Shown: positions 11,198 through 33,782 of the stretch, piece by piece
Numbering within the stretch: position 1 is the stretch's first letter
Layout: every line of letters begins with the position of its first letter
Source of the DNA: Chryseobacterium sp. BGARF1
GTDB taxonomy: Bacteria > Bacteroidota > Bacteroidia > Flavobacteriales > Weeksellaceae
Direction: 5' to 3'
Length of the DNA: 64,000 nucleotides
Assembly (NCBI RefSeq): GCF_001677955.1
Contig: NZ_LELA01000031.1
Location: forward strand, 1 to 64,000
Notes under the pieces: model-generated
Told to the model about the DNA's origin: nothing
Seen by the model: the letters and a program-made list of their open reading frames with translations, nothing else
Database searches by the model: none
Program-made: the position numbers and the translations under genes

Positions 11198-11902
11198 ATG
11201 CTGCTAACGGAACTTACTCAGATTTTATTTGCACAGGTCGTTATACCTACTGTACCTGTAGAAAAGCTTGAATTTTCTTTTTGGAATATCCTTTTTCATG
11301 GTGGTATCTTCGCTAAAATAGTGATGGTGACAGTTTTGTTATTAGGAGTTTTCTCTGTTTATCTATTTTTTGAAAGATTTTTCTTTATTAAAAGAATGAC
11401 GTCAAAAACAGATTCTAATTTTATGAATAACATCGAAGACTTCATCCGAGATGGAAAGATAGAGGCTGCAGCTGATTATTGTAAAACACAGAACTCTCCA
11501 GAATCCAGAATTTTAGAAAAAGGGATTTCAAGATTGGGAAGACCCGTTTCTGATATTGTAAGTGCGATGGAATCTCAAGCTCAAATTGAGGTTGCCAATA
11601 TGGAAAAAAACCTGAATCTTTTGGCAGTTGTACCAAGTATTGCACCGATGTTGGGGCTTTTGGGTACGGTAATCGGGATGATTATTGCGTTCTTCGACTT
11701 GTCTCATGCGGAGGGGGCTTTCTCTCCGAAAACATTATCTGAAGGTATTTATACCGCTCTTGGTCAAACGGCAGTTGGTTTGGCAGTGGCAATTCCGGCG
11801 AACTTTTTCTACAATATTTTGTTGACGAGAATTGATAAATTCGTTCTGAGAACTCAGAATGTTTCGGGAGAATTTTTAGACATTATCAATAAACCTTTAT
11901 AA
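11198..11902 (+). CDS. exbB: MotA/TolQ/ExbB proton-channel protein
   Basis: Inner-membrane proton channel that powers TonB-dependent outer-membrane transport with ExbD and TonB. Three transmembrane segments are visible: about residues 37-60, about 145-170 (around APMLGLLGTVIGMIIAF, the most conserved part of the family) and about 185-208 (ALGQTAVGLAVAIPANFFYN). The cytoplasmic loop between the first two is of normal size. At 234 residues it is full-length. It is ten bases from exbD and begins a three-gene unit. TolQ function instead of ExbB cannot be excluded by sequence alone. Confidence 0.92.
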   Translation: MLLTELTQILFAQVVIPTVPVEKLEFSFWNILFHGGIFAKIVMVTVLLLGVFSVYLFFERFFFIKRMTSKTDSNFMNNIEDFIRDGKIEAAADYCKTQNSPESRILEKGISRLGRPVSDIVSAMESQAQIEVANMEKNLNLLAVVPSIAPMLGLLGTVIGMIIAFFDLSHAEGAFSPKTLSEGIYTALGQTAVGLAVAIPANFFYNILLTRIDKFVLRTQNVSGEFLDIINKPL

Positions 11903-11912
11903 ATTCTAACAG

Positions 11913-12308
11913 ATGAAAATTCAGAGAAGAAATAAAGCGCATCCGGAATTCAGTTTAGCAGCAATGACAGACGTTATCTTGCTAATGTTGATCTTCTTTA
12001 TGATTACCTCTTCGGCGGCTAATCAGAGTGCAATTGATGTAAAACTTCCACAAACAGGAAGCGTAGATAACAATATTCCGAATCCGATGACGGTAAGTGT
12101 AAAACCAGACGGGTCGTATTTTGTAAATGATATACCTGTAAGCAGAGAATTGGTAGAACAAACAATCGTTGCTGATCTTCAGAGCAAATCGGCAAAATCG
12201 TTTACCATAAGAGCAGACGAAAGCACAATGCATAAAGACGTAGTTTTTTTAATGAAGATTGCAGAAAAGCATAAGTTTAATATTGCTATTGCAACGGTAA
12301 AAGAATAA
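11913..12308 (+). CDS. exbD: ExbD/TolR biopolymer transport protein
   Basis: Partner of ExbB: one N-terminal membrane helix and a periplasmic domain. The helix (about residues 17-36) carries the conserved aspartate in MTDVILLMLIFFM that carries protons. The periplasmic part (about residues 40-131) has the usual KPDGSYFVND segment and a KDVVFLMKIAEKH helix. At 131 residues it is of normal length. It lies between exbB and tonB; the 85-base gap to tonB holds a degenerate copy of an intergenic palindrome. Confidence 0.92.
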   Translation: MKIQRRNKAHPEFSLAAMTDVILLMLIFFMITSSAANQSAIDVKLPQTGSVDNNIPNPMTVSVKPDGSYFVNDIPVSRELVEQTIVADLQSKSAKSFTIRADESTMHKDVVFLMKIAEKHKFNIAIATVKE

Positions 12309-12320
12309 ATATTCTGTATT

Positions 12321-12360
12321 GCTACGAATACACGAATAAGAAAATGAGTGCATTCTTGGC
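12321..12360. repeat. Degenerate intergenic palindrome inside the exb operon
   Basis: GCTACGAATACACGAAT (12321-12337) is opposed by GTGCATTCTTGGC (12348-12360), an imperfect inverted pair of the same family as 24150-24237. It sits between exbD and tonB. Confidence 0.5.
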
Positions 12361-12393
12361 AAATAAAAATTATAATTTGAGACCAATAAATCA

Positions 12394-13272
12394 ATGAGAG
12401 GTTATACGATAAATAGAGCCGAAGAAAATAAAGATAAGATAAAAAGTGCAGTACTTTCTATTCTTATTTGGTCTGCTATTTTGTTATTCGTTTTCATCTA
12501 TAAAATGAAACCTACGGAGCGAGAAAAAGAACCTGAGGTGATTACCACAATGCTCGTTAACTTTGGAGATAACCGAAATGGAGCGGGAATCGAAGAACCA
12601 GCAAACCAAGAAGGAAGTTTGGCTGCAAAAGCTATTGAAACAGCTCCCGAACCAGTTGAAAATGTCGTTTCTGAGCCTAAAACAATAATTACTCCGGATC
12701 CAAAACCGGAATCAAAGAAAACTGAGGTTAAGGAAAAAATAATTACCGGAACAAATACCAAAGTTACTGTTCCGAAAAAAGAAGATTCAAAAACCAATAA
12801 AAAATCAACGGCAAGTTCGACGACGAAAAGCACAAAAAGTTCTGCAACAACAGCCAATTCTAAAACAGGAAACGGTGATGGGAAAGGAACTGCTGCCATA
12901 GGAAATCTATTTAAGGGTCGTGGAACAAAAGCCGGCAGTCAGGGAACAGGAACGGGAATAGGTAACAATGGCGATCCTTTAGGTGGAGACGGAAATGGCG
13001 ACAGCAAAGTTGGAATTGACCGAAGATTGATAGGTTATATTCCCGGAACAATGGGAAGAGGAGGAGCGCAACCAAGCCACAGTTGCTCAGCAAGCGGATC
13101 GATTACCATTGCATATGTTGTAGATAAAGCCGGAAATATTTCTTCAGCAAGAAAATCAGGCGGAGTTTCAGATCCTTGTGTGGTTTCTACTTCAATTGCA
13201 TGGGTTAAAAAATATGTGAAAGCTGAAAAAGCCAGCGTGTCATCCACCGGAACTTACAACATCACATTCTAA
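12394..13272 (+). CDS. TonB-like energy transducer
   Basis: Third gene of the exbB-exbD unit. It has one membrane helix near the N-terminus (about residues 19-40), then a long low-complexity periplasmic linker rich in Lys, Pro, Thr, Ser and Gly (about residues 60-200) and a C-terminal TonB-like domain (about residues 210-292). The C-terminal domain contains a Cys pair (SHSCSAS and SDPCVVS) that could form a disulphide. At 292 residues it fits TonB proteins of the group. It should couple the proton channel to TonB-dependent receptors, which are not encoded here. Confidence 0.87.
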   Translation: MRGYTINRAEENKDKIKSAVLSILIWSAILLFVFIYKMKPTEREKEPEVITTMLVNFGDNRNGAGIEEPANQEGSLAAKAIETAPEPVENVVSEPKTIITPDPKPESKKTEVKEKIITGTNTKVTVPKKEDSKTNKKSTASSTTKSTKSSATTANSKTGNGDGKGTAAIGNLFKGRGTKAGSQGTGTGIGNNGDPLGGDGNGDSKVGIDRRLIGYIPGTMGRGGAQPSHSCSASGSITIAYVVDKAGNISSARKSGGVSDPCVVSTSIAWVKKYVKAEKASVSSTGTYNITF

Positions 13273-26965: not shown

Positions 26966-27406
26966 TTATTTGAAATTTATAGTAATAGGAATTTGAAGTT
27001 TAGTTCTTACAAAATTTCCATTATGTTTTGCGGGAATCCATTTACCTTTGATGCGTTTTATGGCTTTTTCTACAGAATGATTAAAGCTTTTGTTTGATCC
27101 TATAACCTGAGTTTCTGCAATATTTCCATCCCTTTCTACGGTAAAATTCAGGATTGCTTTAAGAATATTTTCATTCTTTTTGATTTTTACTGAGTCTAAT
27201 ATGATAGCATCCTCAATCTTCTTGGTGAAAGCTTCTGTGCCATTAGGAAAATAGGCTTCATGATTGGGATAATCAGGACATACTGTAGCTACATCAACAA
27301 TCTCTATTGCTTTCGGCATTGATGGCGTTGCGGAAGGGATTGGAATATTCTGTCCAAAAACAATCCCATTAAAGATCATTATGATAACTAAAGTAAGATT
27401 TTTCAT
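26966..27406 (-). CDS. Secreted TonB C-terminal-domain mini-protein (first of five)
   Basis: A 146-residue exported protein: signal peptide (residues 1-18, ending VFGQ) followed directly by a TonB C-terminal-like domain. The diagnostic blocks are FPNGTEAF (about residue 54), a central VERDGNIAETQVIGSNKS, and KGKWIPAKHNG near the C-terminus, ending on a beta strand. The membrane anchor and proline-rich linker of true TonB are missing, so it should be soluble in the periplasm. It is one of five paralogues between 26966 and 32565. Function is unknown. Confidence 0.8.
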   Translation of the reverse strand: MKNLTLVIIMIFNGIVFGQNIPIPSATPSMPKAIEIVDVATVCPDYPNHEAYFPNGTEAFTKKIEDAIILDSVKIKKNENILKAILNFTVERDGNIAETQVIGSNKSFNHSVEKAIKRIKGKWIPAKHNGNFVRTKLQIPITINFK

Positions 27407-27483
27407 CGTTAAATTTCTTCAAAAATAAAAAAATCGATGTCAATTTCTGACACCGATTGAAATTAAAAAAAATAAAATTATCT

Positions 27484-27945
27484 TTAATTAAACTTTTTAC
27501 TCACCAAAGGAAAAAAGAATATATAGCGTGTCGCTTCACCGTTCAATTTTGCAGGTTTCCAACGGACAAAGATCTTTCTCAATCCTTGTTCTGCAGCTTC
27601 TGCATGTTTTTTGTTTTTTGAAACGGCAGTAATGTTTCGTACATATCCGTTTTTTTCAACAATAAAGTAGAGTCTTGTATCTAATTTTTCGTTTTTCTTA
27701 AGGTCTAAAGTTTCAATGTTCTCGAAGTATTTTCTTTTAAAAGCATCCATTCCTCCCGGAAATTCAGGGATGGTATCTGCTTTTGTAACGACCTGTTTAA
27801 GGTCTAATCTATTTTTAATAACTTCATAATCTGGCAAACCAGAAACATCAGCAATGGTAGTCTGAACAGTTTTTTTTTCTTCTGTATTTTGTGCAAAAAC
27901 AAGAGAGGAAAAACCAAGAACCATCAAAAAAAACGCTTTTTTCAT
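27484..27945 (-). CDS. Secreted TonB C-terminal-domain mini-protein (second of five)
   Basis: A 153-residue paralogue of the neighbours. Signal peptide at residues 1-18 (VFAQ), then a 40-residue lead-in, PEFPGGMDAFKRKY (about residue 62), a central VEKNGYVRNITAVSKNK strand-turn-strand, and VRWKPAKLNG near the C-terminus. It is the most divergent at the extreme C-terminus (SKKFN). Same strand as its neighbours, separated by 77 and 63 bases. Soluble periplasmic location is inferred. Confidence 0.8.
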   Translation of the reverse strand: MKKAFFLMVLGFSSLVFAQNTEEKKTVQTTIADVSGLPDYEVIKNRLDLKQVVTKADTIPEFPGGMDAFKRKYFENIETLDLKKNEKLDTRLYFIVEKNGYVRNITAVSKNKKHAEAAEQGLRKIFVRWKPAKLNGEATRYIFFFPLVSKKFN

Positions 27946-28008
27946 TTAAATTTAATAATAGTTTTGAGTATTATCGTCAAAGATAAGTATATTAAATGGG
28001 TATCAAAA

Positions 28009-28428
28009 TTAATTGAAGTTTAAGGTAAGCGGGACCTTAAAACGGTACCTTACTTTTTGTCCGTTAATTGTAGCGGGAGACCATTTACCTTTAATTTTAG
28101 AAACCGCTCGAATAGCTTCGTTATTAAAACTTTCATTAGTTCCACTTGCCGTAATTCCTGTAAGAGTACCATCTCTTTCAATGACAAACATGAGTTCGCA
28201 TTTTTCAATGCTCTTGCTTATTACATTTTTAACTTTTAATTTCTTAAGTAGCTTTCGTCTGAACGCGTTAATGCCTTCTGAAAATTCAGCAGGTTTTTCA
28301 ACATCATTAAAAATTTCAGATCTGTTTTTTTTCAAATCTAATTCCTGCAGCTCGGTGGTTCCTGCAATTTCTTGAGCTTGTGTGAAATAGCCAAATAGTA
28401 ATGCGGATATTATAATTATTTTTCTCAT
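28009..28428 (-). CDS. Secreted TonB C-terminal-domain mini-protein (third of five)
   Basis: A 139-residue paralogue with signal peptide (residues 1-18, ending TQAQ), AEFSEGINAFRRKLL (about residue 47), central VIERDGTLTGITASGTNES, and KGKWSPATINGQKVRYRF. It is closest to the first and fourth/fifth copies in the last 40 residues. It is the promoter-proximal gene of a three-gene run (28428 to 26966) and is divergent from the thioredoxin-fold gene at 28535. Confidence 0.8.
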   Translation of the reverse strand: MRKIIIISALLFGYFTQAQEIAGTTELQELDLKKNRSEIFNDVEKPAEFSEGINAFRRKLLKKLKVKNVISKSIEKCELMFVIERDGTLTGITASGTNESFNNEAIRAVSKIKGKWSPATINGQKVRYRFKVPLTLNFN

Positions 28429-28534
28429 CGTTTAATTTTAGCAAAAATAAGACTCTCAAACTAAATGGTATTTAATTAACAAAATTTAACAAGTCTGATT
28501 TATTGGTTTACAAATTCATTCGTTAATTTTGATT

Positions 28535-29032
28535 ATGAAGAAAATTTTGAGTTTAACTGCACTGATTTTCAGTATGTCTTTTTGTTTTTCACAGGAGCAA
28601 ATTATTGTAAATGACGTTCCGATGATTAAATATGAAGTGCTTGAAAAGAAAATTCAGGAAGAAAAAGAGGTTCTGCTGGTTCTTAATTTCTGGTCTACCA
28701 CTTGTGCTCCTTGTGTAAAAGAACTTCCGGATTTTATGGAGGTTAATGAGAAATATAAAGACAATCCTAAATTTAAAATGCTTTTGGTGTCTTTAGACCG
28801 TCCGAAAGACAAAGACCGTGTTGTTCAATTTATTAAAAACAAGAAACTTACCGCAGAAGTTATTCTCCTTGATGACATTAAACGAATGAATACCTGGATT
28901 CCCCGATTTGAAAAAAACTGGGACGGAAATATTCCGGTAACCATTATTTATAAAAACTCAGAAAAAGTACATTTTAATGACGGGGAAATGACAAAAACTG
29001 AACTGGAAAACTTAATCACAAAAAATCTATAA
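28535..29032 (+). CDS. TlpA-like thioredoxin-fold exported protein
   Basis: A 165-residue periplasmic thiol-disulphide protein. The signal peptide ends at about residue 20 (CFSQ); the active site is TTCAPCVKELPDF, a Cys-Ala-Pro-Cys pair typical of TlpA/ResA. I chose ATG at 28535; a TTG two codons earlier is possible. It is followed after two bases by another thioredoxin-fold gene, so the two act together, probably in cytochrome or envelope thiol maintenance. No ccm genes are visible. Confidence 0.88.
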   Translation: MKKILSLTALIFSMSFCFSQEQIIVNDVPMIKYEVLEKKIQEEKEVLLVLNFWSTTCAPCVKELPDFMEVNEKYKDNPKFKMLLVSLDRPKDKDRVVQFIKNKKLTAEVILLDDIKRMNTWIPRFEKNWDGNIPVTIIYKNSEKVHFNDGEMTKTELENLITKNL

Positions 29033-29034
29033 AC

Positions 29035-29688
29035 ATGAAAAATATTAAAACATTAGTTGCTGCAGCGATAATAGGCCTAAGCTTACTAAACTTTACAACA
29101 TTCAATAAAAACAATGAAGAACCAAAGCAAAAAGTAAGTTCTTCAAAAGGCTATGAAGTGGGTGATACAGCTGCCGATTTTAAGCTTAAAAATATCGACG
29201 GGAAAATGGTGTCGTTGAGCGATTTTAAAATGGCAAAAGGTTTCATCGTAGTTTTTACCTGTAATCATTGTCCGTACGCAAAAAAATATGAAGACAGAAT
29301 CGTTGCGCTTGATAAAAAATATAAAGAAGCCGGTTATCCCGTGATTGCGATTAACCCAAATGACCCGAATGTGCAGCCGGAAGACGGTTTTCAACAGATG
29401 ATTACCAGAGCCAAAGAAAAAGGCTTTACGTTTCCGTATTTAGTGGATGAAGGCCAAAAAGTTTATCCTCAATATGGTGCCACAAAAACGCCACATGTTT
29501 TTATTCTTCAGAAAGAAGGTGCAAAAAATATCGTAAAATATATTGGAGCCATCGATAATAATTATGATGACCCGAACGACGTTTCAGAACGATATGTAGA
29601 AGATGCAATGGATGCTTTATTGAGCGGAAAACCAGTTGCAAACGCCAAAACAGTAGCGATAGGCTGTACAATAAAAGTGAAAAAATAA
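29035..29688 (+). CDS. Exported thioredoxin/peroxiredoxin-fold protein
   Basis: A 217-residue protein with an N-terminal signal or anchor helix (residues 5-22), then the fold of the AhpC/TSA-redoxin group: GDTAADFKLKNIDG is the typical opening, and the active-site pair is FTCNHCPYAKKY (Cys-Asn-His-Cys). The PHVFILQ cis-proline region follows. It may hold two further Cys at the end (IGCTI). It is two bases downstream of the TlpA-like gene and ends before a strong terminator. Confidence 0.87.
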   Translation: MKNIKTLVAAAIIGLSLLNFTTFNKNNEEPKQKVSSSKGYEVGDTAADFKLKNIDGKMVSLSDFKMAKGFIVVFTCNHCPYAKKYEDRIVALDKKYKEAGYPVIAINPNDPNVQPEDGFQQMITRAKEKGFTFPYLVDEGQKVYPQYGATKTPHVFILQKEGAKNIVKYIGAIDNNYDDPNDVSERYVEDAMDALLSGKPVANAKTVAIGCTIKVKK

Positions 29689-29717
29689 TTTTATTTTTAA
29701 AATTAAATTGAGATATT

Positions 29718-29747
29718 GGGCAGGCTTTTAGTCTGCTCTTTTTTTAT
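29718..29747 (+). terminator. Intrinsic terminator after the thioredoxin pair
   Basis: Six-base stem (29718-29723 with 29733-29738, one wobble) followed by eight or more T, 30 bases past the stop. Confidence 0.75.
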
Positions 29748-29769
29748 AAAGCCTTAGCCCAAATTAATC

Positions 29770-30159
29770 ATGATGAAATTTAAATTTAGCCCGAAATATT
29801 TCCTTTTAACCATCCTTATTTTTCTTGTTGAGGTTTTAATTGCAACTATTTTAAAAGATAATTTCTTTATCAGAGCTTACCTGGGAGATGTGATTGTGGT
29901 GATGCTGCTGTATACTTTTGTGAAAAGCTTTGTCATCATCAACCAAACAAAATTAATCATCGGGATTTTTCTTTTTTCGTGTCTGGTTGAGTTTGCTCAA
30001 TTTTTCCATGTAGCAGCCAAATTAGGCTTCCAACCGGGAAGCCTGATGTATATTGTTATCGGAAATTCTTTCTCGTGGATTGATATTTTGTGTTATGGAG
30101 TTGGTTGCGTAATTTTATATATTTTCACAAAATTCAAATCAAAAAATGAAGACCATTAG
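29770..30159 (+). CDS. DUF2809 membrane protein
   Basis: A 129-residue inner-membrane protein with four hydrophobic helices (about residues 9-27, 35-52, 58-77 and 95-122). The DUF2809 hallmarks are LGDVIVVMLLY and the later SWIDILCYGVGC. Function is unknown. The first two codons are both ATG. It overlaps the convergent TonB-like mini-protein gene by four bases; the two stop codons interlock. Confidence 0.83.
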   Translation: MMKFKFSPKYFLLTILIFLVEVLIATILKDNFFIRAYLGDVIVVMLLYTFVKSFVIINQTKLIIGIFLFSCLVEFAQFFHVAAKLGFQPGSLMYIVIGNSFSWIDILCYGVGCVILYIFTKFKSKNEDH

Positions 30160-30575
30160 TCTAAATTGAACTGAAGAGGTTGTCGCATACGCATTTTTAC
30201 TTTCTTGCCATTTTGTTCGCCGGGAACCCACTTTGTTTTTATTTTGTTGAGTGCATTTAGAAACTCTGTTTTTACGGCTTCATGGTCATAAGATTCCATT
30301 CTCAAATTAATCATATTTCCTTCTTTATCAATATCAAAAACGGCAATTGCTCTTGCTTTTGCAATGTTCTGCTTTGCTAATCGGGAAGTGTTGAAATTAT
30401 TGATAATTTGTTTCATAAATGCAGCGTGCCCTCCTGGAAATTCCGGAATTTTGTCTGAAGATATTTTTCCATAATCAGAGCCTGCTTTTACATCAGGATA
30501 TTGTATCGAATCTTTTTGAGCATCGATAGAGATTATGCAAAATAAAATCAGTAGAAAAGCTAAATATTTTTTCAT
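30156..30575 (-). CDS. Secreted TonB C-terminal-domain mini-protein (fourth of five)
   Basis: A 139-residue paralogue: signal peptide 1-19 (ISIDAQ), PEFPGGHAAFMKQI (about residue 45), a central FDIDKEGNMINLRMES and KTKWVPGEQNGKKVKMRMR. It is the last gene of a tight operon (BaiN flavoprotein, mini-protein, DUF2306, YARHG, this one), six bases after the YARHG gene. Its stop codon overlaps that of the convergent DUF2809 gene. Confidence 0.8.
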   Translation of the reverse strand: MKKYLAFLLILFCIISIDAQKDSIQYPDVKAGSDYGKISSDKIPEFPGGHAAFMKQIINNFNTSRLAKQNIAKARAIAVFDIDKEGNMINLRMESYDHEAVKTEFLNALNKIKTKWVPGEQNGKKVKMRMRQPLQFNLD

Positions 30576-30581
30576 GATTAT

Positions 30582-31502
30582 TTATCTTCCAAAAGAATCG
30601 TACTTATCTTCAGCATACTTGATGAAACGGTTCAGCAAAGCCACATTGTCTTTTTCCATGGGTGAAAGTTCGCTGTCAACGTTATTAGAAACAGGGATGT
30701 ACCAATCGGTTTGCTCAAAGAAGTTTCTGTACGTTTGTTTTTTAAAGGAATATCCGTGTCTTGCAAAAACTGCATTCTTGATGATTTCCATATCGAGTTT
30801 TCTTAGATTTTTCAAGTCTTTTTCTGTCAGTTTTTGTTTAGATGCATTGATTTTAAAAACGGCATCAGAAGCAATCCTGTTTTTTGAAGCTGTGTAAGTT
30901 TCTGTTTTTCCGGTTTCTTCGTCAGTGTATTTTTCTTTAAAATCTTTAGGGTTTTCCCAATCAATCAGGTCTGAATTTTCATCCAACATAAAATTCGGAT
31001 TGTAAACGAACTCTTTTTTGATAAGTTTTAAGTTTTTTAATGGGGCTTTTACGGCAGATTTATTAAAAGCGGTCCATTTTCCGGTGATGCTGTCGTTTTT
31101 TAGCTTAATTTCAAATCTTCCGTCGGTTTTATCATTTCCTGGCTCATCCAAAATAAAAGATTGAGAACCTTCATTGAAAACCCCACGAAATGGGCGCTGA
31201 GTTCCATTCACAATACTTTGTCCGTACACAGAATCCTGAGTAATTCGGTTGATTTTTAAGGAAAGCCTTTTATAATCTGTTCCTTCGTAATATTCTTTGG
31301 TTTCATTATCATAAAGCTCTCCTTTGCCTGCAAATTCTCCGGTATAAATTCCATAGTATTCTTTATGAACTTCTGGGATTACCACAGAATCTTTTTTTGC
31401 AGTTAAACTGTCTTTAGGTTTTTCTTCGGTTGTTGCTTCTTTTTTACAGCTCATTAAGCTGATGGTAAAGAGAGTGATTACAGTAAATTTTAAAATTTTC
31501 AT
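30582..31502 (-). CDS. YARHG-domain lipoprotein
   Basis: A 306-residue lipoprotein: signal and lipobox ISLMSC (Cys about residue 19). After an N-terminal beta-rich domain (about residues 45-180), the C-terminal YARHG domain occupies about residues 230-300, with FARHGYSFKK as the family signature and EQTDWYIP after it. YARHG domains are found on extracellular proteins of unknown role. It is five bases from the DUF2306 gene upstream and six bases before a TonB-like mini-protein gene. Confidence 0.87.
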   Translation of the reverse strand: MKILKFTVITLFTISLMSCKKEATTEEKPKDSLTAKKDSVVIPEVHKEYYGIYTGEFAGKGELYDNETKEYYEGTDYKRLSLKINRITQDSVYGQSIVNGTQRPFRGVFNEGSQSFILDEPGNDKTDGRFEIKLKNDSITGKWTAFNKSAVKAPLKNLKLIKKEFVYNPNFMLDENSDLIDWENPKDFKEKYTDEETGKTETYTASKNRIASDAVFKINASKQKLTEKDLKNLRKLDMEIIKNAVFARHGYSFKKQTYRNFFEQTDWYIPVSNNVDSELSPMEKDNVALLNRFIKYAEDKYDSFGR

Positions 31503-31507
31503 ATAAA

Positions 31508-32143
31508 TTAAATGTGCTTTTTTGTGATTAAATATTCAATTAATAAAATGTTTGGAATCCAGCCCAACCATGCAATGATTTGGTAAACATCCATCGGATT
31601 TGGGTGGAATAAATATACAATAATTACCTTCCACATTCTCAAAGTGATGGCAGAAATTGTAAGTGCGAAACTTCGCCACATCCATTGTTTGTGTTCTTTA
31701 AATTTTCTCTGTCGGGCTAATTGATAAGCCTTAAACGTAGTAAACCACCAAAGACAACCTAAAATGACAAAAGAAATTTTTGATAAAGATCCACCATTTG
31801 CAAAAATTCCCATGTAAATTCCAGAAGGTGCAGCGAATAGTAGAATCAAAAAAATATAAATTTTCCCAGTGTTTCTGTGAAAGTTTTTCAATAGAAAATC
31901 TTTTCTTAAAATGGCTAAAAAACCTGTCAATAAAACAAAAATGCTGGTGTAAACGTGAGTGTAGAAAAAGTAAAGATATTCCGGTCTTTCAACTACTTCC
32001 GTTTGCTTAATCATCAAAAAGCTCACGTTGGTGTCTAAAGGAATATACTCTAAAGTGATTTTCAGCATCAACCAAAAGAAATACCCAAATCCTATGATGA
32101 GAGGAATTTTTAAAAATATGGTGTTTCTTCTGCTTAAAGACAT
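31508..32143 (-). CDS. DUF2306 membrane protein
   Basis: A 211-residue polytopic membrane protein with about six hydrophobic segments. Histidines in or near helices (YFFYTHVYTSIF, about residue 58; EHKQWMWRSFALT, about residue 150) are conserved in DUF2306 and could coordinate haem or metal, but this is an inference. Function is unknown. The gene starts two bases after the stop of a TonB-like mini-protein gene, and the YARHG gene follows by five bases. Confidence 0.85.
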   Translation of the reverse strand: MSLSRRNTIFLKIPLIIGFGYFFWLMLKITLEYIPLDTNVSFLMIKQTEVVERPEYLYFFYTHVYTSIFVLLTGFLAILRKDFLLKNFHRNTGKIYIFLILLFAAPSGIYMGIFANGGSLSKISFVILGCLWWFTTFKAYQLARQRKFKEHKQWMWRSFALTISAITLRMWKVIIVYLFHPNPMDVYQIIAWLGWIPNILLIEYLITKKHI

Positions 32144-32145
32144 TG

Positions 32146-32565
32146 TTAATTATGGAAATTCATTGCAATAGGCAATCTAAACAAATATTTTACTGGCTGT
32201 CCGTTGAGCAAGGCGGGTTTCCATTTGGTTTTTGACATGGATTTTATACTACGCTCCATTTCCTTATTCATCGATTTATTTTCGCCTATTATTACAATGT
32301 CTGTAATTATTCCTTCCTCTGAAATTACAAATCGAGCTTCGGATTTTGCTAAACCATTCGCATTAATTTTACTGCTATTGAAGGTTTTTGAAAAATTATT
32401 TCTAAAAGCATTTATTCCTCCCGGATAGACTGGAAGTTCATCAGCATCTTGATATAAACTGTCTTTTTTTTCAAGTTCAAATGTTTTGTTAAGTGCTGAA
32501 GTGTGATTTTGAGAAAAGAAGATCCCAAAGCTTAAAAAGAGAGTAATGATTAATGTTTTTTTCAT
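32146..32565 (-). CDS. Secreted TonB C-terminal-domain mini-protein (fifth of five)
   Basis: A 139-residue paralogue: signal peptide 1-18 (IFFSQ), LPVYPGGINAFRNNF (about residue 45), a central VISEEGIITDIVIIGENKS and KTKWKPALLNGQPVKYLF. It begins 14 bases after the BaiN-type flavoprotein gene and is followed after two bases by DUF2306, so it belongs to that operon. It is closest to the third copy in the last 40 residues. Confidence 0.8.
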   Translation of the reverse strand: MKKTLIITLFLSFGIFFSQNHTSALNKTFELEKKDSLYQDADELPVYPGGINAFRNNFSKTFNSSKINANGLAKSEARFVISEEGIITDIVIIGENKSMNKEMERSIKSMSKTKWKPALLNGQPVKYLFRLPIAMNFHN

Positions 32566-32579
32566 ATTGCTTTTTTGTG

Positions 32580-33782
32580 TTATAAATTATTCAAATCCTC
32601 AGCAATCAACCAAGCTTCACTCCAACATGCTTGAAAATTAAATCCACCGGTTACTGCATCAATATTCAGTACTTCTCCAGCGATGTAAAAGTTAGGTAAA
32701 ATTTTCGAAGACATATTTTTAAAATTAATTTCCTTTAAATCTACACCTCCAGCGGTTACAAACTCATCTTTAAATGTTGATTTTCCTGTAACTTGAAATT
32801 TCTTTTTGCATAAATTTTCCAAGATTGTCTGCATTTCTTTTCCTGAAATCTGTGCAACTTGTTTATTTAAATTGATATTTGAAACTTCCAGAATTCTCTG
32901 CCAAAAACGGTTGGTTACTTCAAATATTTTCGATTGTCCGATAGATTTCTTCGGATTTGACTGTTTGAAATTCTGAAATAATTCTTCAGCATCATCGATA
33001 TTTTTAGAAATAAAATTGACCTCAATCTCAAAATTGTATTTCACTTTTGCCAAATTAATCGCTTCCCAAGCCGAAATTTTCAAAATTGCAGGCCCCGAAA
33101 GTCCCCAATGGGTAATCATCATCGGTCCGCTTTCTTCCGTTTTCAGTTTCGGAATCGATGTTTCTGCCATCTCAAAACTTGTTCCTAAAAGGTCTTTCAG
33201 CAAGTCATCTTTAATATTAAATGTAAATAAAGAAGGAACCAAATCAATGATTTTATGTCCCAGATTTTCAATCATTTTTAAAGATTTTGGCGAACTTCCC
33301 GTTGTATAAATGACGAAATCAGCTTCAAAATCTCCCAAACTGGTTTTTACCAAATACTTTTCATCATTTTTTAGAATTTCTTTGACCGAACTTTTGGTTT
33401 TCACTTCAATATTTTTCTGTTTCGTTTCGTTTAAAAAGATGTTGATAATGGTCTGAGAAGAATTGCTTTCCGGGAAAATTCTGTTGTCCTTTTCTATTTT
33501 CAACGGAATATTTCGTTTTTCAAACCAATCCATGGTGTCTCCTGGCTGAAATTTGGTAAAAACGCTCAGTAATTCCTTGTTTCCACGAGGATAAAACTGA
33601 ACCAATTCTCTTGGGTCAAAACAAGCATGGCTTACGTTACAACGCCCACCACCCGAAATTTTTACTTTTTGTAAAACATCTGAATTCTGCTCAAGAATGG
33701 TAACTTTATATTTCTTTTCGTCAAGATTTGCTGCACAGAAGAAACCTGCTGCACCGCCTCCGATAATGATAATTTGCTTCAT
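32580..33782 (-). CDS. BaiN/HI0933-type flavoprotein oxidoreductase
   Basis: A 400-residue cytoplasmic FAD protein of the HI0933/BaiN group. The Rossmann motif is GGGAAGFFCAANL at the N-terminus; SGGGRCNVSHACFDP (about residue 43) and the C-terminal AGEVLNIDAVTGGFNFQ are the family hallmarks. The substrate is unknown; BaiN itself acts in bile-acid dehydroxylation, but most members do not. It is the first gene of the operon that contains two TonB-like mini-proteins. Confidence 0.88.
   Translation of the reverse strand: MKQIIIIGGGAAGFFCAANLDEKKYKVTILEQNSDVLQKVKISGGGRCNVSHACFDPRELVQFYPRGNKELLSVFTKFQPGDTMDWFEKRNIPLKIEKDNRIFPESNSSQTIINIFLNETKQKNIEVKTKSSVKEILKNDEKYLVKTSLGDFEADFVIYTTGSSPKSLKMIENLGHKIIDLVPSLFTFNIKDDLLKDLLGTSFEMAETSIPKLKTEESGPMMITHWGLSGPAILKISAWEAINLAKVKYNFEIEVNFISKNIDDAEELFQNFKQSNPKKSIGQSKIFEVTNRFWQRILEVSNINLNKQVAQISGKEMQTILENLCKKKFQVTGKSTFKDEFVTAGGVDLKEINFKNMSSKILPNFYIAGEVLNIDAVTGGFNFQACWSEAWLIAEDLNNL

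Follow-up and report, generated by a model that had tools for sequence, protein, structure and literature searches.

Five short proteins, each predicted to consist of an export signal and a single TonB-type C-terminal domain (CTD), are encoded within 5.6 kb of DNA from Chryseobacterium sp. BGARF1 (contig NZ_LELA01000031.1, of which positions 1 to 64,000 were analysed as the window). They are numbered m1 to m5 by position and, like other short exported TonB-CTD proteins, are called minis in the following. Judged from their sequences, the minis are probably exported, cleaved and soluble proteins of the periplasm, and an uncleaved anchor is unlikely. TonB CTDs themselves are well known; what appears to be new is an anchorless, exported, CTD-only set of them with turnover by slot. 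The first-pass annotation of this DNA had described five secreted TonB-CTD mini-proteins in 5.6 kb, and this description stands: the five open reading frames (ORFs) of 139-153 residues all have TonB_C (PF03544) as their best Pfam family. They form a cluster, but not a gene row, as five other genes are interspersed among them. The minis occupy three slots (slot A after mutS, slot B before the gene of a YARHG-domain protein, slot C in the interval between the DUF2306 and BaiN genes) and two transcription contexts:

26966-27406, minus strand: m1, exported TonB-CTD protein of 146 aa, slot A; TonB_C 30.8 bits
27484-27945, minus strand: m2, exported TonB-CTD protein of 153 aa, slot A; TonB_C 17.3 bits; modelled with AlphaFold2
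28009-28428, minus strand: m3, exported TonB-CTD protein of 139 aa, slot A; TonB_C 30.2 bits
30156-30575, minus strand: m4, exported TonB-CTD protein of 139 aa, slot B; TonB_C 24.1 bits; ends the gene run 33782-30156
32146-32565, minus strand: m5, exported TonB-CTD protein of 139 aa, slot C; TonB_C 23.0 bits; within the gene run 33782-30156; modelled with AlphaFold2

With the TonB_C gathering cut-off at 24.6 bits, m1 and m3 lie above it and m4, m5 and m2 below. None of the five reaches the cut-off of any NCBIfam model, including tonB_Cterm (TIGR01352, 27.1 bits), and the genome's own anchored TonB (C92) likewise stays under the TIGR01352 cut-off with 19.0 bits. A sequence search of the PDB with the five-row profile gave weak matches, a peroxiredoxin ranking first (E 0.0043) and the TonB of H. 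pylori second (E 0.013). The identity of m2-m5 to m1 is 24-32%, and in a tree with TonB the minis group largely by slot, which agrees with their earlier description as old paralogues of low identity.

Fold models cover m5 and m2, while m1, m3 and m4 are assigned by sequence. The AlphaFold2 model of m5 has a mean predicted local distance difference test score (pLDDT) of 85.7, with values of 89-97 for the ten-residue blocks from residue 41 onward; the mean for m2 is 84.1. When the models were compared with the PDB by Foldseek, the top match was in both cases 6i97_D, a fragment bound to FoxA (E 8.1e-4 for m5, the sole match below 0.001, and 8.6e-3 for m2), followed by TonB and TolA CTDs. In VIA-align, ranks 1-22 for m5 and 1-20 for m2 are all taken by CTDs of TonB, TolA or FusB (best Z 7.6 with a root-mean-square deviation of 2.7 over 86 residues, and best Z 8.0 with 2.5 over 86, respectively). 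The tool itself rates Z values of 7-8 as middling; they still count because these ranks are uniformly occupied by TonB, TolA and FusB CTDs and stand well above the unrelated rows. According to the models, m2 and m5 have the TonB/TolA CTD fold, so that the fold first assigned is borne out for these two of the five. The CTD structures concerned (6i97, 6sly, 2gsk, 2x9a) have this fold in common with the modelled minis at a sequence identity to m5 of 5-20% (VIA-align list), and are taken by us to derive from full-length anchored proteins. Both models are also matched by the Bacteroides DUF5043 protein 4qe0 (Z 4.5 for m5 and 4.7 for m2), which may be distantly related to the TonB CTD fold.

The export signal was judged by a pattern of our own and by eye. 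In an alignment of 107 rows (the five window minis and 102 of the 132 usable locus minis; copies that were truncated, shorter than 125 or longer than 180 aa had been dropped beforehand), the glutamine at position 19 of m5 (Q19) is found in 107/107 minis without gaps. It is one of three invariant columns and lies within a stretch that otherwise hardly aligns. The strict pattern asks for a positive N-terminus, a hydrophobic stretch and a small-x-small-Q site, and is passed by 133 of the 143 slot minis; of the ten that fail, six have ordinary signals by eye and four are without a recognisable one. As controls, 0/75 mutS and 0/79 BaiN proteins pass; 49/57 thioredoxin-like proteins pass, which fits exported proteins. 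When the Q in the pattern is swapped for eight other residues, 6-94 of the 143 minis pass. Since the highest of these values belongs to serine, the invariant Q column is stronger evidence than the pattern. A Q-rule has been described for the Bacteroidetes, by which cleavage by signal peptidase I uncovers a glutamine for cyclisation (excerpts of PMC5837995; PMC10653852). Taken together, the aligned glutamine and the pattern point to a cleaved signal and not to an uncleaved anchor.

The periplasm is the likely location, because a lipobox-like pattern is seen in 1/143 slot minis (that one also with the Q site) and there is no space for an extra sorting domain. Export as cargo of the type IX secretion system was rejected for the same lack of room, as the domain extends to the protein end, although no dedicated search was run. 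Between signal and domain lie about 20-40 residues (by eye), without a periplasm-spanning proline-rich linker. The earlier claim that both the anchor and the long linker of TonB are missing is thus upheld by the Q-rule signal and the short spacer. None of the five minis is adjoined by exbB or exbD; their neighbours are mutS (by eye) and thioredoxin-like, YARHG and DUF2306 genes.

The turnover becomes visible when the locus is compared across the genus. By means of the YARHG protein as anchor, 80 named loci were gathered (78 from Chryseobacterium, one from Kaistella and one from a Weeksellaceae bin), a set that may leave out the source genome itself or a very near one. The nearest named locus is that of C. 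balustinum (YARHG protein 96% identical; 98% in the genus member G001). Slots were counted in the 73 loci that are complete from mutS to BaiN, the seven incomplete ones being left out. Slot A is filled in 35 of these (with 1-4 minis each), slot B in 16 and slot C in 51; slot A of L095 was tallied as 0 in one count and as 1 in another. The number of minis per locus is 0 in 3 loci, 1 in 29, 2 in 28, 3 in 8, 4 in 3 and 5 in 2. All 143 slot minis share one orientation, a total in which the five of the window and the minis of incomplete loci are counted. When presence is mapped on a tree of 74 taxa built from four neighbour proteins, at least 4 changes are needed for slot A, 10 for slot B and 14 for slot C, counts that come from a quick, rough tree search and are given without a shuffled control.

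A domain tree (FastTree, midpoint root, rough and without support values) sorts the minis for the most part according to slot. Three slot C minis, those of L128, L143 and L156, fall instead with the m3-like type of slot A. A single clade holds the ExbD-linked TonBs, the anchored TonB-family protein C111 and the long-branched slot A mini of L151. Longer ORFs also occur in slot A: one of 292 aa in L089 (252 bits, about twice one domain) and one of 239 aa in L156. A protein of 262-283 aa with a lipoprotein-like start is often found in the interval between mutS and the thioredoxin-like gene (L102, L105, L109 and others), chiefly in intervals without minis, though L100, L116 and L133 have both.

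The minis appear to be constrained and yet to diverge quickly. Compared with G001, the ratio of nonsynonymous to synonymous substitutions (dN/dS) is 0.30 for m1, 0.16 for m2, 0.19 for m3, 0.20 for m4 and 0.06 for m5, against 0.00-0.09 for ten neighbours. The corresponding dN values are 0.039, 0.146, 0.126, 0.071 and 0.014 (neighbours 0.003-0.040), those of m1 and m5 being within or near the neighbours' range. Against C. balustinum, dN/dS is 0.52 for m1, 0.09 for m2 and 0.13 for m4 (ten neighbours 0.00-0.15), and m3 and m5 share one paralogous best match there (0.19 and 0.33, respectively). By these ratios, the mini frames are under purifying selection at the protein level. The residues of the fold core that are fixed in the minis are F79, G85, W115, P117, G122 and P132 (m5 numbering). 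The single slot C mini of C. balustinum is 50% identical to m5, while the ten neighbours are 87-100% identical. In seven genomes, identity to the source genome is 79-81% for the TonB CTD, 74-83% for the YARHG protein and 44-50% for m2, whose type is the one mini type present in all seven; for m1, m3, m4 and m5 it is 24-50%, with many of these values comparing different paralogues where a slot is empty. The mean pairwise identity is 0.90 among 10 anchored TonB CTDs, 0.39 among the minis of slot C, 0.39 for slot A, 0.58 for slot B and 0.62 for the m2 type; these groups were drawn from different species sets, and the seven-genome comparison serves as the paired check. On these sequence comparisons, the minis mostly diverge faster than both their neighbours and the anchored TonB CTD. 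The dS of m1 (0.13 to G001 and 0.09 to C. balustinum) is below that of all neighbours except one, the neighbours' dS to C. balustinum being 0.27-0.73 in nine of ten and 0.04 in one. The dS of m2 to G001 (0.92) is above that of the neighbours. The low value of m1 and the high value of m2 hint at patchy exchange between species.

Elsewhere in the source genome (4.675 Mb in 260 contigs), the five-mini profile finds further relatives. At E<=1e-3 there are 14 matches, and an even spread of these would put about 0.017 in 5.6 kb; the cluster of five is therefore not due to chance. Eleven of the 14, of which six lie outside the locus, begin with a signal of the exported type that is followed by a Q (translations read). 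Three such genes stand in tandem on contig C6 (L012, 1525-1866), where the middle one is interrupted by an in-frame stop. The three remaining matches are membrane proteins, namely the anchored TonB (C92), whose gene follows an exbD-like gene (by eye), the anchored TonB-family protein (C111), whose gene adjoins a parA-like gene, and a BlaR1/M56 peptidase (C42). The latter (L084, 1518-2954) carries a C-terminal TonB_C-like domain below the cut-off and is encoded beside a BlaI-like regulator (by eye).

In single comparisons, the CTD of the C92 TonB is 45% identical to both m3 (E 2e-33) and m5 (E 1e-29), and it is 28% identical to m4 (E 7e-14). It belongs to the same CTD subfamily as the minis, with the EFPGG start, KxKWxPA, NG and the RLPL end. 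The two signatures first read as those of the mini family (PxFPGGxxAF and KxKWxPAxxNG) are indeed present, but they are not special to the minis, as this anchored TonB carries both. Unlike the minis, it has a transmembrane anchor, a proline-rich linker and an exbD-like neighbour, in a gene order like that of Riemerella TonB2. By sequence, the nearest kin of the minis is thus the CTD of their own anchored TonB, rather than the ExbBD unit of the window:

11198-13272, plus strand: ExbB, ExbD and a TonB-type third gene, the C-terminus of the third protein being unmatched by TonB_C; context only

This unit had been taken as a complete ExbBD-TonB system. Its exbB and exbD genes (11198-12308) are real, but Pfam gives no TonB_C match for the third protein at E<=0.1; the front part of this protein gives a weak TonB_N match and sub-threshold NCBIfam TonB matches. 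The unit was rejected as the minis' partner by descent, as no significant similarity was found between the third protein and the C92 TonB. The third gene (12394-13272) encodes a proline-rich, TonB_N-like front and two cysteines in the C-terminus, and the gene order resembles that of Riemerella TonB1 by our own assignment.

Matches to the mini profile (E<=1e-6) occur in 24/25 genomes of the family (23/24 genera) and in 39/40 of the class, counts that include anchored TonBs and two genomes of Chryseobacterium. In 20 stretches with short frames, chosen among the class matches listed, 22 short proteins were found at E<=1e-4, and 17 of these have a Q-type signal by eye. As in the window minis, the signal with Q is followed by one CTD. 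However, 15/22 retain the YP motif of standard TonB CTDs, which is missing from the window minis and the C92 TonB. That its loss would disable the minis was rejected: the motif is uninformative on them, because the anchored C92 TonB and its counterparts in the genus are without it as well. By these sequences, proteins with an export signal and a TonB CTD are found across the class, within which the locus of Chryseobacterium looks like a separate branch that has expanded. With m5 as the only query, carriage by phages (3 weak matches, E 5e-3 or worse) and by plasmids (6 matches with 27-32% identity, four of them annotated as energy transducer TonB) was rejected.

A described precedent concerns TbfA from Riemerella anatipestifer, a TonB-family protein that is not linked to exbBD and whose over-expression inhibits hemin use (excerpts of PMC5109031; PMC4446302). 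In the former source, as far as excerpted, competition for ExbBD was suggested as the cause. This mechanism is not transferable to the minis, because an anchorless protein could not compete for ExbBD. The counterpart of TbfA here is, by our own assignment, the C111 protein, which is anchored and about 280-293 aa long and not a mini. In the literature searched, which left most subscription journals outside its coverage, no description was found of exported, anchorless, CTD-only TonB proteins with slot-wise turnover. In E. coli, an exported soluble periplasmic domain of TonB reportedly inhibits transport, a result that did not turn up in that search.

The remaining genes of the locus are conserved neighbours or separate the slots. 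The names thioredoxin-like, AhpC/TSA, YARHG and DUF2306 come from Pfam; mutS, BaiN, ThiL and 'DUF2809?' are our own labels:

28529-29688, plus strand: thioredoxin-like and AhpC/TSA-like pair (Pfam), separating slots A and B
30582-31502, minus strand: YARHG-domain protein (Pfam) with a lipoprotein-like N-terminus (by eye), conserved neighbour in the interval between slots B and C
31508-32143, minus strand: DUF2306 membrane protein (Pfam), conserved neighbour
32580-33782, minus strand: flavoprotein-like gene heading the run (our label BaiN), 14 bases from m5

The minus-strand run of BaiN, m5, DUF2306, YARHG and m4 has gaps of 14, 2, 5 and 6 bases. Because of this tight spacing, m5 and m4 look co-transcribed with the three other genes. 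The slot A genes are preceded by other elements:

27420-27427, minus strand: TANNTTTG box, 21 nt upstream of m1, within the T-rich tail of a stem-loop
27432-27458, minus strand: terminator-like stem-loop in the m2/m1 interval, 12 pairs (4 G-C) and a T tail
27978-27985, minus strand: TANNTTTG box, 40 nt upstream of m2
28442-28449, minus strand: TANNTTTG box, 21 nt upstream of m3

The box, which we take to be the Bacteroidetes -7 element, is not found within 160 nt upstream of m4 or m5; as background, the 64-kb window has 43 copies of it on one strand and 47 on the other. Terminator-like sites number 8 in the region against 4.4 expected, and a scan for sigma-70 promoters stayed at chance level (28 found, 27.7 expected). 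That the slot A genes are single transcription units is weakly supported by these predicted elements.

As to function, a mini would be soluble in the periplasm and, once its signal peptide is cleaved off, would comprise a short linker and a single CTD of the TonB type. The CTDs of TonB and TolA bind their targets via strand addition (excerpts of PMC12204202; PMC11658791), and the last beta strand of a mini would, by analogy, accept an extended partner peptide in the same way. As there is no anchor to a motor, force could not be transmitted, and the simplest function would be that of a passive binder occupying, capping or presenting peptides of outer-membrane proteins. Such passive binding at outer-membrane partners, receptors included, is the function towards which we tentatively lean, short of calling it probable. 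The minis would differ in their partners. Over the 13 residues of the docking strand, m3 agrees with the genus TonB consensus at 10 positions, m5 at 9, m1 and m4 at 6 each and m2 at 5, while the own C92 TonB agrees at 9. Since m3 and m5 best keep the docking strand of the anchored TonB, they are the likeliest to meet the TonB boxes of TonB-dependent receptors, and their partner may be the same as that of TonB; uptake would then be damped or tuned. As the strand is changed in m1, m2 and m4, these three probably have other, diverged peptide partners.

Several observations weigh against passive binding at receptors and other outer-membrane proteins. The docking strands of m1, m2 and m4 are unlike that of TonB. 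The last strand varies at most positions in slots A and C (by eye), save for V125 and P132, and for R126 in slot A; in slot B it is conserved, yet unlike TonB's. Three of the 73 complete loci are without any mini at the locus, and the function is therefore not essential there. Receptor plug-domain matches number 36 in the source genome and 25-72 across 40 genus genomes, and over these 40 their number is unrelated to that of CTD-type matches (Spearman -0.11, p 0.50, anchored ones counted), by which a copy number tracking receptor number was rejected. The first-pass annotation had suggested soluble modulators that could bind TonB boxes or compete with TonB; competition as the plain role of the whole set is disfavoured, because neither a preserved strand nor a tie to receptor number was found.

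Some of the same observations suit a different role, in which the partners bound by strand addition would be other envelope proteins that have no relation to receptors, for example the YARHG lipoprotein or the DUF2306 membrane protein, and the minis would be their adaptors. The tight run places m5 and m4 right beside these genes (m5 is flanked by gaps of 14 and 2 bases, and m4 is preceded by one of 6), the positions in the run are the same in other species, the strands of m1, m2 and m4 are off the TonB consensus, slot B conserves a different strand, and copy number shows no link with receptor number. However, like proteins are encoded outside the run, both in slot A and at other sites of the genome, where six more exported copies exist, one of them interrupted by a stop. 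In addition, loci that lack the minis retain the neighbours. This role is somewhat unlikely, though it deserves serious thought. A good deal less likely is the explanation that the minis are decaying or near-neutral TonB duplicates with little function, to which their frequent absence, the four slot copies in which no signal is recognised by eye and the own-genome paralogue interrupted by a stop would correspond. Decay fits poorly with dN/dS values well below 1, Q19 in 107/107 rows, the core residues F79, G85, W115, P117 and P132 kept across slots, and a slot A presence that requires only 4 changes (74 taxa).

The fast divergence under purifying selection, the 10 and 14 parsimony presence changes at slots B and C (74 taxa) and the conservation of the anchored TonB CTD meanwhile could also be expected of decoys, soluble TonB tips that would intercept the segment by which phages or bacteriocins bind TonB or TolA, and so keep it from the motor. 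In solved structures matching the models, the TolA CTD is indeed bound by a filamentous phage protein and by colicins. Yet the whole-gene dN/dS is below 1 throughout (0.06-0.52) and the locus is surrounded by conserved genes, which leaves a decoy function improbable. Hardly credible is that the minis are anchored energy transducers whose uncleaved signal acts as a transmembrane helix. A single hydrophobic N-terminal segment is present, as this would demand, but the Q-rule site is found in 133/143 minis by the strict pattern and in 107/107 aligned rows, the spacer is too short to cross the periplasm, and exbB or exbD stands beside none of the five.

In the Bacteroidota, dozens of TonB-dependent receptors are served by few TonBs. 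It is conceivable, though on balance unlikely, that the Bacteroidia possess an unrecognised set of soluble TonB tips without anchors, which would occupy or present docking peptides of outer-membrane machines and thereby control the reach of the few TonB motors; Chryseobacterium would have diversified this set by slot, each slot with a docking strand of its own. If this is true, motorless exported TonB tips would be a simple way, as yet without a name, of tuning or blocking receptor traffic. The turnover in fixed slots, with species having from 0 to 5 copies, makes the idea directly testable within one genus.

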